Shown: one piece after another, positions 44,574 to 50,990 of the stretch
Numbering within the stretch: position 1 is the stretch's first letter
Layout: each line of letters starts with the position of its first letter
Source of the DNA: Crocinitomicaceae bacterium
GTDB taxonomy: Bacteria; Bacteroidota; Bacteroidia; Flavobacteriales_D; Sanyastnellaceae
Direction: 5' to 3'
NCBI GenBank assembly: GCA_002722795.1
Contig: PBMY01000014.1
Coordinates: forward strand, 62,001 to 126,000
Length of the DNA: 64,000 bases
Made by a program: the position numbers and the translations under genes
The notes under the pieces: model-generated
What the model saw: only the letters and a program-made list of their open reading frames with translations
Database searches by the model: none
What the model was told of the DNA's origin: nothing

Positions 44574-45731
44574 CTACTCCGCACCAATCATTGCGTCAAG
44601 CTCAGCCTGTAAAGCGTCAATCTGCGATTGTAATCCAGAAATAATCTGAAGCAGTTCTTGGCCATTTAGACTAATTCCACCACTTACTACCAAATCGCCA
44701 TTAACTAAAGTTCCATCACTACTTACCTCAAAGGCATTTGACCTATCACTCTCACTCTCACCATCACCAACTACAAATAGAGTTCCCACTCTATCAATTT
44801 CATTGAACTGCCCGACAACAGTTGAATATTGTTGATCAGCAGTCACGTTATAACCAATAGCAGCGCTTGCTGTAGCAGATGCGACAGCTCTTCTTCCTGA
44901 AGCATGAGAATAACTGCCAATAGATTCAGTTTGGTATCCTTCAGCGTGTGATGCAAAACCAGTTGCTACACTTTCGAATCCTTCAGAGTGTGCAGCATCA
45001 GCAAGAGCTGAAGTCCCTTCACCCTCAGCATGAGCGCATGTAGAATTAGCAACAGTGTTTCTATTCTCAGCGTGAGAATACAAACCACTTGCAACTGTAT
45101 TCCAACCCTCAGCATGGGAAGCTGTATTTGTCGCCTCAGTTCGGTATCCCTCAGCGTGGCAATAGTTTGAAGTAGTTTCTGTTTGATAACCCTCAGCATG
45201 TGATCCAGTCCCTGCAGCGTCAGTTTGAAATCCTTCAGAGTGAGCGGCGGTAGAAGTTGCATTTGTTCCTTCACCTTCAGCGTGAGAACAAATCCCTGTA
45301 GCGGTACAGTTTTGGTTTGAAGCATTACTGTAAAAGCCAGTTGCTAGGCTAAACCTTCCACTAGCATTAGCATAATTTCCAGTAGCAGCACAACCATCGC
45401 CTTGTGTTGATGTTCCTGTAATAACGACATTACCTTGAACTAGACCGGCTGAATTTTGCTGTCCTACAGGAGTGATATCTTCAAATACGGTTACTTCAAT
45501 TAATGTCTTAATACCGTCAACTGTAGTCTCGCCTGTTCCACCAAATTCAACGGGTAAAATACCCTCTGGCTGAAAGGCTTCGCCATAAGTCGGCAAGAAA
45601 CCAAGTAAATCTGTAGATCCAATACTTCCGTCACCATCAAAATCTGGATTATAAGGAAGGAGCTCATTATCTGATTGAGCAAAGGAGCCTATACTTAAAA
45701 GTGCAAAAAGGGGTAATAATAAATTCTTCAT
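44574..45731 (-). CDS. YadA-head-like 14-residue-repeat surface protein with dockerin-like N-terminal motif
   Basis: Secreted protein of 385 residues. Signal peptide to residue 18 (SFAQ), a single EF-hand/dockerin-like motif (DFDGDGSIGSTDLLGFL near 29-46), about 60 beta-rich residues, then roughly thirteen 14-residue repeats (about 112-300) of the SHAEGxxTxATGxx type, which form the left-handed beta-roll of YadA-like trimeric adhesin heads. A coiled coil of about 25 residues closes the chain. No YadA membrane anchor or type IX CTD is present. Probably a trimeric surface fibre or adhesin; export route unknown. Confidence 0.8.
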   Translation of the reverse strand: MKNLLLPLFALLSIGSFAQSDNELLPYNPDFDGDGSIGSTDLLGFLPTYGEAFQPEGILPVEFGGTGETTVDGIKTLIEVTVFEDITPVGQQNSAGLVQGNVVITGTSTQGDGCAATGNYANASGRFSLATGFYSNASNQNCTATGICSHAEGEGTNATSTAAHSEGFQTDAAGTGSHAEGYQTETTSNYCHAEGYRTEATNTASHAEGWNTVASGLYSHAENRNTVANSTCAHAEGEGTSALADAAHSEGFESVATGFASHAEGYQTESIGSYSHASGRRAVASATASAAIGYNVTADQQYSTVVGQFNEIDRVGTLFVVGDGESESDRSNAFEVSSDGTLVNGDLVVSGGISLNGQELLQIISGLQSQIDALQAELDAMIGAE

Positions 45732-45733
45732 AA

Positions 45734-48532
45734 CTAACCTACGATATTGATGATTCGACCTGGGACCACAATGACTTTGTGTATCTCTCGGCCATCCATG
45801 TGTTTTAATGTGTTCTCATCCAACCTTGCTATAGTTTCGACTTCATCAGCCGGCGTATCAGCAGGGAGGGTGAGTTTAAATCTTACTTTTCCGTTGAATG
45901 AAACGGGATATGTAACTTCATCAGCTACAAGGTATTGAGAATCTGCCTCAGGCCAAACAGCATCGATTACAAATTCTTCTCCACCAACTTCTTTCCAAAG
46001 CTCTTCAGCGAGGTGAGGAGCGTAAGGACTAAGAAGAATAACTAAATCCTTCAAAGCACTGTTAGAGCATGACTCCTTCAAACCTCCAAGCTCATTAACG
46101 GCAATCATCATAGCACTGACAACTGTATTGAAAGCGTGCCTTTCTAGATCTGAGCTTACTTTTTCAATAGTCTTGTGCACTATCCTCAACTCCTCAACTG
46201 AAGCGTCTTTATCCTCAGCCGAACTGACCAATCGTACGAACTTCCTCAAAAAGTTGTGTACTCCACTTATTCCCTGAGTATCCCATGGTTTACTTTGAGT
46301 AAGAGGCCCCAAAAACATCTCATAACATCTAAGTGTGTCAGCGCCATACTTTTCTACAAGTTCGTCAGGAGTCTGTACGTTGTACTTAGACTTAGACATC
46401 TTCTCCACCTCGTGACCACAAGTGTAAGTACCGTCATCACCGAGAATAAATACAGCATCTGCATATTCCTCTCTCCAAGCCTTAAATCCTTCTAAATCGA
46501 GCTTATCGTTGTCAACTAAATTAACATCTACATGAAGCCTCTGCACTTGGTATTCCTTACGCTTTTCGAAGCTCACAAATTTTGAAGTTCCTTTCACTCT
46601 GTAAACGAAGCTTGATCGACCGAGAATCATGCCTTGGTTAATCATTGTCTTAAAGGGCTCGTCAAAACCGATCAAGTCCATATCGTTCAAGAATTTAGTC
46701 CAAAACCTAGAATATAGCAGGTGCCCTGTGGTGTGCTCAGCTCCCCCAACGTAAAGATCCACTTGACCCCAGTAATCTGATTTGGACCTATCACAAAACG
46801 CCTCAGAATTATGAGGGTCCATAAATCTTAAAAAGTACCAAGAAGATCCAGCCCAACCAGGCATTGTATTAGTCTCCATTCTATCTCCCTTAAAAACTGG
46901 CCAATCCTCTTTTGCAGCACGCGCAAGTGGAGGTTCGCCATCAGCAGTAGGCAAATAAGCGTCGACAGATGGGAGATTAACAAGCTTGTCCTCTATAAGC
47001 TGTGGGATATCATCAACGTAGCAAATTGGAAAAGGTTCGCCCCAATATCTTTGGCGAGAAAATACGGCGTCTCTTAATCTGTAGTTAACTCTTTTTTCTC
47101 CGTGGCCGCTAGACTCTAGAATTTCAATAGCTGCAGTGATGGCGTCTTTTTTTGACTTGCCATTGAGATCTTTCGAACCTTTGAGAATTGCTGTGTCATC
47201 AGAACATACTCCCAGGTCAGTGTCGAACCCATCGAAAATTGCGGGGATCTCGATATTAAAGTGCTTTGCGAATTTCCAATCTCTTTCGTCGCCAGCGGGG
47301 ACAGCCATGATGGCTCCTGTTCCGTAACCAATCAGAACGTACTCTGCTATGTAAACTGGAATTTCATTTCCAGTTAATGGGTGCAAGACGCTACCACCGA
47401 GGGCAACACCTGTTACTTCTTTATCGCCTTGACGTTCTCTCTCACTTTTTCGTCCTGAAACGATTAGGTACTGCTCAACTACCTGGTGATTTGCTTCTGT
47501 CGTTAATTCGCGTACGAGCTCATGCTCGGGGGCTAGAACTATGAAACTCACTCCGTAAATGGTTTCGGGGCGAGTTGTAAACACCTTTAATGACTTGCCT
47601 GTTGAAGTTCTGAACTTAACTACGACACCTTCTGAACGACCTATCCAATTTTTTTGTGCTTCCTTAATGCTGTCCGTCCAGTTCACGTCGTCTAATCCTG
47701 AGAGAAGTCTTTCAGAATAGGCTGTGATACGCATCATCCACTGACGCATTTTCTTCTTTTCAACGGGGTGGCCGCCGCGCACTGATAGACCGTCCTTTAA
47801 TTCGTCATTAGCAAGTACAGTGCCTAGTTCGGGGCACCAGTTTACTTCTGAATCTGCTAGGTATGCAAGTCGGAATTGCATGAGGAGGACGCTTTTTTGG
47901 GCCTTGTTAAATGAGTTCCAATCTGTAGCGGTGAACGTTCCAGCGAAGTTTTCGCCGAAGTGAGGGAACAAGCTCATGTCTAGACCTTTGAACCAATTGT
48001 CGTCGCAGGCGGGATTTACTGAGAAATTGCCGTTTGTTTCAAACGCGGTAACTAGATCGCTCAAGGGGCGTGCTTTTCCTGCATCGCGGTCGAACCAAGC
48101 TTGGAAGAGTCGCCCAAAAATCCATTGAGTCCACTTGTAATAACTTGGGTCAGAAGTCATAATCTCACGGCTCCAGTCGAATGAGAAACCTATCTTCTTC
48201 ATTTGGTCCCTGTAGCGATTAGTGTTTGCTTTTGTCGTTAAAGCTGGGTGTTGCCCAGTTTGAATGGCGTACTGCTCAGCAGGTAGACCAAAACTATCAA
48301 AGCCCATAGGGTGCAAGACGTTAAAGCCTTTGTGTCTTTTATAACGAGCTATCACGTCAGATGCGATATATCCGAGTGGGTGACCCACATGTAATCCCGC
48401 ACCAGAAGGGTATGGGAACATATCGAGTATATAGAATTTGGGCTTACCCTCAACCTCTTCTACTTTGTACTTAAGGCCATTTTCCCACGCCTCTTGCCAA
48501 TCCTGTTCTATCCTGAGAAAATCGTAATTCAT
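45734..48532 (-). CDS. leuS: Leucyl-tRNA synthetase
   Basis: Class I synthetase of 932 residues that charges tRNA-Leu. The HIGH motif reads AGLHVGHPLGY near residue 47, the KMSKS motif EKMSKSKYN near 712, and a CP1 editing domain lies between them (about 230-440 with TTRPETIYGV). Length normal or slightly long. The start at 48532 lies 34 nt downstream of a complete promoter. Confidence 0.97.
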   Translation of the reverse strand: MNYDFLRIEQDWQEAWENGLKYKVEEVEGKPKFYILDMFPYPSGAGLHVGHPLGYIASDVIARYKRHKGFNVLHPMGFDSFGLPAEQYAIQTGQHPALTTKANTNRYRDQMKKIGFSFDWSREIMTSDPSYYKWTQWIFGRLFQAWFDRDAGKARPLSDLVTAFETNGNFSVNPACDDNWFKGLDMSLFPHFGENFAGTFTATDWNSFNKAQKSVLLMQFRLAYLADSEVNWCPELGTVLANDELKDGLSVRGGHPVEKKKMRQWMMRITAYSERLLSGLDDVNWTDSIKEAQKNWIGRSEGVVVKFRTSTGKSLKVFTTRPETIYGVSFIVLAPEHELVRELTTEANHQVVEQYLIVSGRKSERERQGDKEVTGVALGGSVLHPLTGNEIPVYIAEYVLIGYGTGAIMAVPAGDERDWKFAKHFNIEIPAIFDGFDTDLGVCSDDTAILKGSKDLNGKSKKDAITAAIEILESSGHGEKRVNYRLRDAVFSRQRYWGEPFPICYVDDIPQLIEDKLVNLPSVDAYLPTADGEPPLARAAKEDWPVFKGDRMETNTMPGWAGSSWYFLRFMDPHNSEAFCDRSKSDYWGQVDLYVGGAEHTTGHLLYSRFWTKFLNDMDLIGFDEPFKTMINQGMILGRSSFVYRVKGTSKFVSFEKRKEYQVQRLHVDVNLVDNDKLDLEGFKAWREEYADAVFILGDDGTYTCGHEVEKMSKSKYNVQTPDELVEKYGADTLRCYEMFLGPLTQSKPWDTQGISGVHNFLRKFVRLVSSAEDKDASVEELRIVHKTIEKVSSDLERHAFNTVVSAMMIAVNELGGLKESCSNSALKDLVILLSPYAPHLAEELWKEVGGEEFVIDAVWPEADSQYLVADEVTYPVSFNGKVRFKLTLPADTPADEVETIARLDENTLKHMDGREIHKVIVVPGRIINIVG

Positions 48533-48626: not shown

Positions 48627-49289
48627 ATGCAGTTCTCACAAACACATTTATCCGTAACAGGTCTTAAAAAGTCAGTTTTGTGTCGCGTATCTTCTAAAGG
48701 CAAACAGAAAAAGGTGTACCTGACATTCAATGATGGGCCTAACCAACAGATAACGCCTTGGGTAGCAGAAAAGCTAAAAGAAGCGGGGGGAGTTAAGGCA
48801 ACTTTTTTCTGTGTGGGTGAAAATGCTGAGAAACATCCTGAGCTTTTAAATTTGCTTAAAGAAGAGGGACATGAATTGGCAAATCACAGCCAAGGTCATG
48901 AAAGTGGTTGGGCAACTTCACAGAAATCGTATTTCAGAAGTTTCCTTGAATGTGAAAACACTTTAGGCAAAACCTCACATTTCAGACCACCATATGGTCG
49001 TATAACTCGCAATCAAGCAAAAGCTCTTGCTACAAGAACCCAAATTGTACTTTGGGATGTTGAGTCAGGCGATTACGATACTTCTAGATCTGGGAAACAA
49101 TGTTTCCATAGTTTAATAAACCAAACTCAACCAGGTAGTATCGTACAATTTAGAGATAGCGAGCGTTCAGCACCTAGGCTTATCTATGCATTGCCAGAAT
49201 ATCTAAAGTGGCTTAAAGAAAACGGATACACTCCGTCACTCATTCCTAAGGATACATCAAAAAACAACAATCAAAAAAACTTAGTTTGA
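48627..49289 (+). CDS. Polysaccharide deacetylase (NodB) homologue with degenerate active site
   Basis: Protein of 220 residues with the NodB fold. Motif 1 reads TFNDGP, so the catalytic base Asp is Asn35 while the metal Asp36 stays. The metal histidines are kept (HSQGH, 87 and 91), as are RPPYG (120) and the WDVESGDYD motif (Asp144). In the last motif (SIVQFRDS) the catalytic His is Arg176. Two of the catalytic residues are therefore missing although the zinc site is whole, so it may bind glycans without deacetylating. No signal peptide is clear. Convergent with the DUF349 gene. Confidence 0.82.
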   Translation: MQFSQTHLSVTGLKKSVLCRVSSKGKQKKVYLTFNDGPNQQITPWVAEKLKEAGGVKATFFCVGENAEKHPELLNLLKEEGHELANHSQGHESGWATSQKSYFRSFLECENTLGKTSHFRPPYGRITRNQAKALATRTQIVLWDVESGDYDTSRSGKQCFHSLINQTQPGSIVQFRDSERSAPRLIYALPEYLKWLKENGYTPSLIPKDTSKNNNQKNLV

Positions 49290-50990
49290 TTGCTCAGCTA
49301 CCGCTTCTCTAAGAAGCTTCAGCTTAGCTTTTATTTCCTCAATTTCTCTTTGGAAACCCTTGATGGTTTTCTCAGCTTGATCAATAATGCTTTGGGCTCC
49401 CTTTCCGGTGAATCTAGACATATTTTCCTCCGTCGAAGAAATCTTAGAGTTGAGTCTATTGATTTTGTCGCGAAGAATTGATTGCTCACGTCTAAGATCT
49501 CTTTCACCACCTTGAGCAAGTCTTTCAACTCTATCAGAGTAATTAGCAACAGACCTTTCAGACCTATCTGCACTTAATGCGTCATAGTGAGTGTCCATTG
49601 CTTTAGAGAACTTATTTAAAAGTTCATCCATATTTTTTCTCGGGACAAACCCCACTCCTCTCCACTCTTCAGAGAATGCCTTAAGCTTATTCAGGTCGTC
49701 AGCTCTGTTCTTAGTAAGCTTAAACTCTTCAACCTTTTTAAGAATACCTCTCTTGATTTCAAGGTTTGCTTTCTCAGTTTTATTTCGCTCTGCAAATTGT
49801 GCCTTTTTAGCGTTGAAGAAGTTATCTTGGGCTTTGTGGAATTTGCGCCAAAGTCTATGTTCATCACTCGGAGGACATGAACCAGTTTTTTTCCAATCTT
49901 TTTGAAGTTGAAGCATTGCCTGAGTTGTCTCCCTCCAGTTTGTACTTTCCTGAAGTGACTCAGCCTTTTCAATTAGAGCCATCTTTGCTTTCTTAGCACC
50001 CTTGCCCTCTTCCTTCATTTTTTCGTAGTAGATCTGTTTCTTTTCAAAGAATACGTCTGCTAACTCACGGAATTGCTTCCAAAGATCTTCGTTGTGCTCC
50101 TTTCCGGCAAAACCTATAGCCTTCCACTTCTTTTGTAATTCTATAACCTTCGAAGTAAGCTTCTGCCAAGCCTTATGGTTTGGCTCAAAGTCACTTGCAA
50201 GGAGATCACGAAGCTCATTAATTACTGCGTCTTTTTGCTTTTTATTGTCCTTAAATCCCTCGCGGACCTTTTCGTAGTGAGTCTTTACTTCGGCAAACAC
50301 AGGGCGTGTTAAACTAAAGAACTTATCGCTCATTTCCTTGTAAGTATCCCTTGGAGAAGGGCCTACGTCAAGCCATTGCTTTTGAATGTCTCTTGCCGCT
50401 TTCTCTCTCTCCTTTATATCTGCTACGTCACTAAGTTTTGAAGCCTCTTCAATTAACTCAACTTTTTTCCTGTGGTTAACCTGCAGGTCATTTTCTTGAA
50501 GCTGTTTGTAGATATTGATATTGTAGAAAAACTCGTCTCTCAACCTGTAGTATTCATCGTGCACTTCCTTGTAATTATTTCCAGGGACGTCTCCAATATC
50601 ATCCCACTTTTCTCTCACTTTATTAAATGAGTCAAAAGCTTTACCAATGTTCTCCTCTTCTTGAATGATGTTTCGAAGCTCCTGAAGCAGGCCTTGCTTT
50701 ATGACCAAATTAGCTCGTTGTTCTTTAGAAATCTTTGCCTTCCAAGCATTTTCTCGAGTCTTAAACTCTTTAGCGAGGTCTTCAAATTTCTCTTCTTCCT
50801 CTGTCGGTTTATAAACAAAGGTTTCATCAAGTTCGTGCTCTTCCTTTTCCCAAACTTCTTTCTGTGAACGAATTTCGTCCTGTGTTAAAGCCCTAAAAGA
50901 ACGGATAGCATTACGCACATCCTTTCGGATGGCTTCCAAATCTTCATTTTGAAGAAGATCGTGGATACGTTGCAATAGTTCAGACCGCAT
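49281..50990 (-). CDS. DUF349 repeat protein
   Basis: Cytoplasmic, highly charged helical protein of 569 residues with five DUF349 units, each holding a W-x-x-[IV/T]-G-x-x-P core: REKWDDIGDVP, QKQWLDVGPSP, QKKWKAIGFAG, QKDWKKTGSCP and SEEWRGVGFVP. The C-terminus is a coiled coil. The domain occurs widely in Bacteroidota and Actinobacteria and has no firm function. Divergent from recX; tail-to-tail overlap of 9 nt with the deacetylase homologue. Confidence 0.92.
   Translation of the reverse strand: MRSELLQRIHDLLQNEDLEAIRKDVRNAIRSFRALTQDEIRSQKEVWEKEEHELDETFVYKPTEEEEKFEDLAKEFKTRENAWKAKISKEQRANLVIKQGLLQELRNIIQEEENIGKAFDSFNKVREKWDDIGDVPGNNYKEVHDEYYRLRDEFFYNINIYKQLQENDLQVNHRKKVELIEEASKLSDVADIKEREKAARDIQKQWLDVGPSPRDTYKEMSDKFFSLTRPVFAEVKTHYEKVREGFKDNKKQKDAVINELRDLLASDFEPNHKAWQKLTSKVIELQKKWKAIGFAGKEHNEDLWKQFRELADVFFEKKQIYYEKMKEEGKGAKKAKMALIEKAESLQESTNWRETTQAMLQLQKDWKKTGSCPPSDEHRLWRKFHKAQDNFFNAKKAQFAERNKTEKANLEIKRGILKKVEEFKLTKNRADDLNKLKAFSEEWRGVGFVPRKNMDELLNKFSKAMDTHYDALSADRSERSVANYSDRVERLAQGGERDLRREQSILRDKINRLNSKISSTEENMSRFTGKGAQSIIDQAEKTIKGFQREIEEIKAKLKLLREAVAEQSN

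Follow-up and report, generated by a model that had tools for sequence, protein, structure and literature searches.

A predicted CE4 pseudoenzyme with an altered pocket and intact metal ligands in marine Crocinitomicaceae-like bacteria

The window (the whole stretch of 64,000 nucleotides analysed here, from a Crocinitomicaceae bacterium) contains a gene for a CE4/NodB-fold protein, whose sequence is best read as that of a CE4 pseudoenzyme that has become fixed and whose pocket, though remodelled, could still hold a metal. The protein is characterized by replacement of the catalytic base and the catalytic acid by Asn35 and Arg176 respectively, with retention of the metal ligands, and two further species share this state. 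We call proteins with this pair N/R and those with the typical Asp and His D/H. Our preferred reading, which we hold to be fairly probable, is that a CE4 orthologue turned into a pseudoenzyme at its original locus, in the ancestor of three marine Crocinitomicaceae-like species, and that purifying selection has preserved it since.

The gene, its predicted fold and its locus

The gene and its two conserved neighbours are as follows:

45734..48532, minus strand: leuS, conserved and divergent from the CE4 gene, which served as an anchor for synteny and a control for rates (Pfam; same place in loci L005, L008, L032 and L033)
48627..49289, plus strand: the predicted CE4/NodB-fold pseudoenzyme gene (open reading frame, PF01522, AlphaFold2 model, structure matches)
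49281..50990, minus strand: a DUF349 protein gene, conserved and convergent with the CE4 gene, which served in the same way as anchor and control (Pfam; same place in L005, L008, L032 and L033)

The frame is intact, with an ATG at 48627, 220 codons for amino acids and a stop codon ending at 49289; the source assembly is 1.74 Mb in size and 83% complete. Membership of the NodB family, proposed in the original prediction from recognisable motifs, is borne out by a match to the CE4/NodB profile PF01522 at 77.1 bits (cut-off 23.1). None of the NCBIfam equivalogs attains its own cut-off with the 220-residue protein, and the PdaA equivalog TIGR02884 scores 68 bits where 298 are required. Among proteins of solved structure, those nearest in sequence are SpPgdA, Bc1960 and further CE4 deacetylases. 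An AlphaFold2 model built on an 8-row alignment (pLDDT 82.0, pTM 0.84; under 50 in the MT4 loop, residues 144-149) predicts the distorted α/β barrel of the CE4 type. When it was compared with the PDB using Foldseek the top matches were all CE4 proteins (TMq 0.81 with Bc1960), and VIA-align superimposed it on Bc1960 with a Z score of 27.7 and an rmsd of 1.9 over 202 residues, and on SpPgdA and its D275N mutant with an equal Z score of 23.3.

A simple hydropathy check finds no N-terminal hydrophobic stretch in the N/R proteins or in the D/H proteins of the genus; ahead of motif 1 the highest 15-residue Kyte-Doolittle mean in the window protein is 0.71. This suggests that the window protein is cytoplasmic, unlike the secreted peptidoglycan deacetylases. 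The D/H orthologues of the wider family (L005-L031 and others) are likewise short proteins, in which Leu or Ile occupies the first acidic MT4 position; as they too lack an N-terminal hydrophobic stretch, they are apparently cytoplasmic CE4 proteins.

The order leuS, CE4 gene, DUF349 gene is identical in all four relatives read, namely the N/R loci L032 and L033 and the D/H loci L005 and L008. A single PF01522 match per genome was detected in each of the 11 genomes of the genus that hold the gene (assemblies 70-97% complete). Given the shared gene order and the single PF01522 gene per genome, the sole detected CE4 copy has changed in place. Trees of LeuS and of the DUF349 protein both recover the same split of three N/R against eight D/H genomes with 100% bootstrap, so that inheritance of the gene looks vertical.

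Two further features of the locus may be recorded. On the far side of leuS lies a gene (44574-45731, minus strand) for a 385-residue protein in which HAEGY/HSEGF-type repeats are numerous; its N-terminal part has a YNPDFDGDG stretch, its C terminus looks coiled, and a Pfam search returned no match for it; a counterpart adjoins leuS in both N/R relatives, L032 and L033. We take its repeats to be reminiscent of adhesin head repeats. The record holding L032 (PBNL01000015.1) is titled Euryarchaeota archaeon isolate SP189; its locus is close to the flavobacterial-type window in both order and sequence, and the title looks wrong.

Replacement of the catalytic pair in three species

In the CE4 mechanism the general base, which is the first Asp of MT1, activates a water bound to a metal held by the second Asp of MT1 and two His of MT2, and the MT5 His, described as strictly conserved, acts as the general acid that protonates the leaving amine (PMC5855634; motif roles also from PMC4505593). 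In active enzymes the MT3 Arg tethers the base Asp (PMC5855634, section 5.1) and the second Asp of MT4 tethers the acid His (PMC5855634; PMC10967932). The corresponding positions of the window protein, all on the plus strand, are:

48729..48731, AAT, plus strand: Asn35, replacing the MT1 general base Asp (TFNDGP), which is D in 109/109 D/H orthologues
48732..48734, GAT, plus strand: Asp36, MT1 metal ligand, kept (sequence and orthologue alignment)
48885..48887, CAC, plus strand: His87, MT2 metal ligand, kept (sequence and orthologue alignment)
48897..48899, CAT, plus strand: His91, MT2 metal ligand, kept (sequence and orthologue alignment)
48984..48986, AGA, plus strand: Arg120 of MT3, kept (alignment; role from PMC5855634)
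49062..49064, plus strand: Glu146, first acidic position of MT4, DxxD(W/Y) (sequence and orthologue alignment)
49071..49073, GAT, plus strand: Asp149 of MT4, kept (alignment; role from PMC5855634 and PMC10967932)
49146..49148, plus strand: Gln174, two residues ahead of the MT5 His position (sequence and orthologue alignment)
49152..49154, AGA, plus strand: Arg176, replacing the MT5 general acid His (VQFRDS), which is H in 109/109 D/H orthologues

Direct reading of the sequence thus agrees with the earlier claim that N35 and R176 occur in an intact frame with the zinc ligands kept. The genus was sampled with 14 genomes, 11 of which have the gene: three encode N35/R176 and the remaining eight D35/H176. 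The N/R trio consists of the window protein and its orthologues in G012 (L003, 76% identity) and G008 (L004, 78% identity), so the conserved N/R pair for which an alignment of orthologues had been proposed is present, in a group of three species only. The eight D/H proteins are 59-64% identical to the window protein. The gene was not found in the other three of the 14 genomes (G006, G007 and G013). True loss was considered for these and rejected in favour of an assembly gap: leuS proper is also missing in all three, so that the locus is simply absent from the assemblies, the DUF349 gene is missing in two, and in G013 it runs into a contig end.

A family-level search gave a match in 107 of 114 genomes. 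After removal of six loci that repeat the trio, 138 homologues were aligned, made up of the three N/R proteins, 109 D/H orthologues (relatives outside the trio at 130 bits or more, some of them drawn from the order, plus a single genome-contig locus) and 26 set aside for scoring below 130 bits. The last comprise 19 D/H proteins, three N/H proteins (L042-L044) in which the motif is aligned differently, two gapped sequences, one K/H protein and one H/R fragment (L141). Asp35 and His176 are found in all 109 orthologues outside the trio and, since they are invariant there, their replacement is not variation at a loose position. There are 25 invariant positions in this set, between residues 26 and 209, and only these two are altered in all three N/R proteins; a random draw of exactly this pair from the 25 has a chance of 1 in 300. 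Apart from positions 35, 174 and 176 all the invariants are retained in the trio.

In all three N/R proteins, accordingly, the general base position holds Asn and the general acid position Arg; the triad D36/H87/H91 is also present in 3/3, from which metal capability is predicted, and the partners of the charge relay, R120 and D149, are retained. The earlier claim that the metal and substrate residues both remain holds for the former. For the latter it is too strong: position 146, which is Leu in 101 and Ile in eight of the 109 D/H orthologues, is Glu, Asp and Glu in the trio, and position 174, Val in 109/109, is Gln, Val and Gln, with Gln in the window protein. By motif alignment position 174 appears to correspond to the MT5 hydrophobic residue, which lines the acetyl-methyl pocket (PMC5855634). 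L146E/D and V174Q imply a pocket recharged, not merely emptied. The LeuS, DUF349 and CE4 protein trees disagree on the order of species inside the trio, so that V174Q may have arisen either once or twice.

The original prediction had allowed that close relatives might keep Asp and His, which would make the pair a recent mutation or an error. The relatives do keep them, in eight orthologues of the genus; the N/R group is nevertheless old, as identities of 76-78% among its proteins show that the change is not recent. An assembly, sequencing or binning artefact could be suspected in that the three N/R assemblies are all drafts and one record, that of L032, bears an odd organism title. Against this, three species-level genomes have the same neighbours and identical codons at both positions (AAT for N35, AGA for R176), and a change from CAC or CAT to AGA takes more than one base change, which, carried by three genomes, makes a sequencing error untenable. 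The three independent sequences already refute an artefact, the chance of which we put as negligible.

We also searched for the TFNDGP motif with a DNA pattern that covers a single spelling of it. It matched in 8 of 399 genomes of the order, three of them the N/R trio; the other five (L142-L145 and L149) were rejected as short or unrelated frames. In the phylum sample it matched in 4 of 395 genomes, namely the window, L151 and two others rejected as short frames of 15 and 40 residues. L151 (G544) is an in-frame segment of 206 residues from a separate Bacteroidota CE4 protein that has TFNDGP but keeps the MT5 His, and its sequence reads as an independent loss of the general base. Plasmid records held only relatives of less than 60% identity to the window protein.

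Selection and the possible role of the protein

Pairwise comparison of the N/R species meets saturation at synonymous sites, and selection was therefore estimated on a tree with a single-ratio codon model (184 codons). The resulting omega, rough in its absolute value because of this saturation, is 0.036 in the N/R trio versus 0.045 in the eight D/H proteins. For the trio the log-likelihood is -1408.4 with free omega, -1481.5 with omega at 0.3 and -1598.5 with omega at 1, kappa being held at its estimate in the fixed fits. The trio is therefore under strong purifying selection, which in practice rules out decay and upholds the earlier view that the gene is not decaying. A relaxed gene on its way out might have been read from the lost catalytic residues and from a stem branch exceeding those of the neighbours; yet the frame is open in 3/3, omega values of 0.3 and 1 fit far worse than 0.036, and the invariants besides 35, 174 and 176 all stand. 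Barring strong bias from synonymous saturation, the omega value already refutes decay, which we regard as highly improbable.

The amino-acid stem between the N/R and D/H groups measures 0.44 in the CE4 protein, as against 0.21 in LeuS and 0.27 in the DUF349 protein, and rooting of the tree gives the N/R group a stem of 0.24 (support 77), compared with 0.13 (support 89) for the D/H group. The longer N/R stem is weak evidence for a burst of change, consistent with one and not proof of it.

Loss of catalytic residues combined with strong preservation suggests that the gene is kept for another job. In a broad sense the protein is thus a CE4 pseudoenzyme, with the fold, replaced catalytic residues, a gene under selection and a presumed lack of activity. 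The proposed mechanism starts from D35N, H176R and L146E/D in a single syntenic copy with retained metal ligands. Classical deacetylation would be abolished, as there is neither a carboxylate to act on the metal-bound water nor an imidazole to serve the leaving amine; CE4 proteins lacking the MT5 His are reported to have no activity, even where the metal triad is present (PMC11713874). Arg176 would occupy the place of the His and probably pairs with Asp149 and/or the new Glu146, both of which lie in the stretch of low pLDDT (residues 144-149) of the model. Arg120, freed of its Asp partner, may supply a second positive group. The resulting pocket would be polar and charged, and still capable of binding metal. 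A general-base mutant of VcCDA, though inactive, still bound chitobiose and chitotriose productively, with metal (PMC5855634, section 5.1).

The repurposed binding protein suggested in the original prediction would accord with this scheme. The most likely role is that of a non-catalytic cytoplasmic protein which binds a metal-liganding saccharide or another small anionic ligand, or which serves as a structural or regulatory partner; V174Q in two of the three proteins weakens the case for an unchanged, ancestral N-acetyl ligand. A more specific and rather doubtful proposal is that the sole CE4 protein, once a metal-dependent deacetylase of the cytoplasm, was converted at its own locus into a receptor that contains a metal and recognises a cytoplasmic saccharide of anionic or phosphorylated kind. 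D35 and H176 would have been traded for a charged network (the freed R120, R176 and E/D146), while the metal and the remainder of the groove were retained. If true, it would constitute a natural switch from enzyme to receptor, with the states before and after surviving as syntenic orthologues in one genus.

The non-enzymatic role could also be the older one: the D/H ancestor may already have had a structural or partner-binding function that did not require catalysis, the N/R lineage having merely dropped the catalytic pair. In BA0330 and BA0331, mutants of the catalytic Asp complement the respective knockouts in full (PMC4505593), and the two omega values indicate that selection acts on the protein as a whole with the same strength once the pair is lost. 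However, every catalytic residue is retained in all 109 D/H orthologues, which means that the rest of the family does depend on catalysis; moreover, L146E/D with V174Q resemble remodelling of a pocket rather than plain loss. We consider a non-enzymatic role that came first unlikely.

Finally, it is conceivable that Glu146 itself provides an acid or base and, together with Arg176 and the metal, supports some other hydrolytic or lyase-type reaction, with a different substrate. In favour of such a changed enzyme are the confinement of a carboxylate at position 146 to the trio (0/109 orthologues), the retained metal triad, Arg120 and Asp149, and the capacity of the NodB fold to host other chemistries, as in the PuuE allantoinase (PMC10967932; 3cl6, VIA-align Z 16.9). 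In VcCDA, however, the first acidic position of MT4, equivalent to 146, contacts the +1 sugar and reaches the His only via water (PMC5855634), and is hence not placed to replace the base; nor does any relative with the same set of residues have a known activity. This alternative seems to us quite improbable.

Comparison with known CE4 proteins

The closest counterparts of the window protein are the D/H orthologues of its genus and family, with which it shares the short N terminus devoid of a hydrophobic stretch, the metal triad, Arg120 and Asp149 and, within the genus, the location beside leuS and the DUF349 gene. It differs from them in that all 109 have D35, H176, L/I146 and V174.

CE4 pseudoenzymes as such are known already. 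BA3943 of Bacillus anthracis (PDB 7bkf, titled as a CE4 family pseudoenzyme) shares the CE4 fold (Z 22.6) and an Asn at the base position. The alignment with 7bkf shows that wild-type BA3943 has lost the metal Asp of MT1 as well as the Arg of MT3, and has kept the MT5 His; the window protein is the reverse, keeping the metal Asp and the Arg and losing the His, and lacks the N-terminal extra domain described for BA3943 (PMC6115787). Three CE4-like proteins of Clostridia, L042 (3755-4486, plus strand), L043 and L044, have motif 1 replaced by MINVYWG and motif 3 by APPSG, and their nearest PDB entry is the BA3943 pseudoenzyme. In L042 the adjoining gene resembles what we take to be an FtsK/SpoIIIE-type translocase.

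Ba0150 (PDB 4m1b) likewise shows the CE4 fold (Z 24.6) and is called a pseudoenzyme, predicted to be catalytically inert, in PMC10967932; it differs in its MurNAc-deacetylase-like origin and in being reported without metal (PMC6115787), whereas the window protein has an intact metal triad. The PdaA-type MurNAc deacetylases keep the first Asp of motif 1 and are described as lacking the metal Asp (PMC5855634), a pattern opposite to that of the window protein, which lost the former and kept the latter. The D275N form of SpPgdA (PDB 2c1i) has the same TFNDGP motif 1, but is a laboratory mutant with an engineered single change and the MT5 His in place. BA0330 and BA0331 are comparable as deacetylase-family proteins in which no activity was detected and which have non-enzymatic roles, acting without deacetylase activity and binding peptidoglycan (PMC4505593); they differ as lipoproteins with an extra domain and another NodB topology, in which the catalytic Asp and His are kept.

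In the open-access literature searched we found no description of a CE4 protein with Arg at the MT5 His position. The published CE4 pseudoenzymes that we found are Bacillus paralogues (BA3943, Ba0150) or come from a microsporidian, and in most of them the metal site is damaged too; in contrast, the N/R protein is the only detected CE4 copy, and base and acid are gone while the metal ligands stay. What is new is thus which pair was lost, the intact metal ligands and the status as a single-copy orthologue. As active-type orthologues, 59-64% identical, occupy the same locus in sister species, the N/R and D/H proteins form a clean pair of states before and after the change, and thereby offer a way to ask what the protein does without catalysis and what role is played by the short, cytoplasmic-looking CE4 proteins of Bacteroidota.
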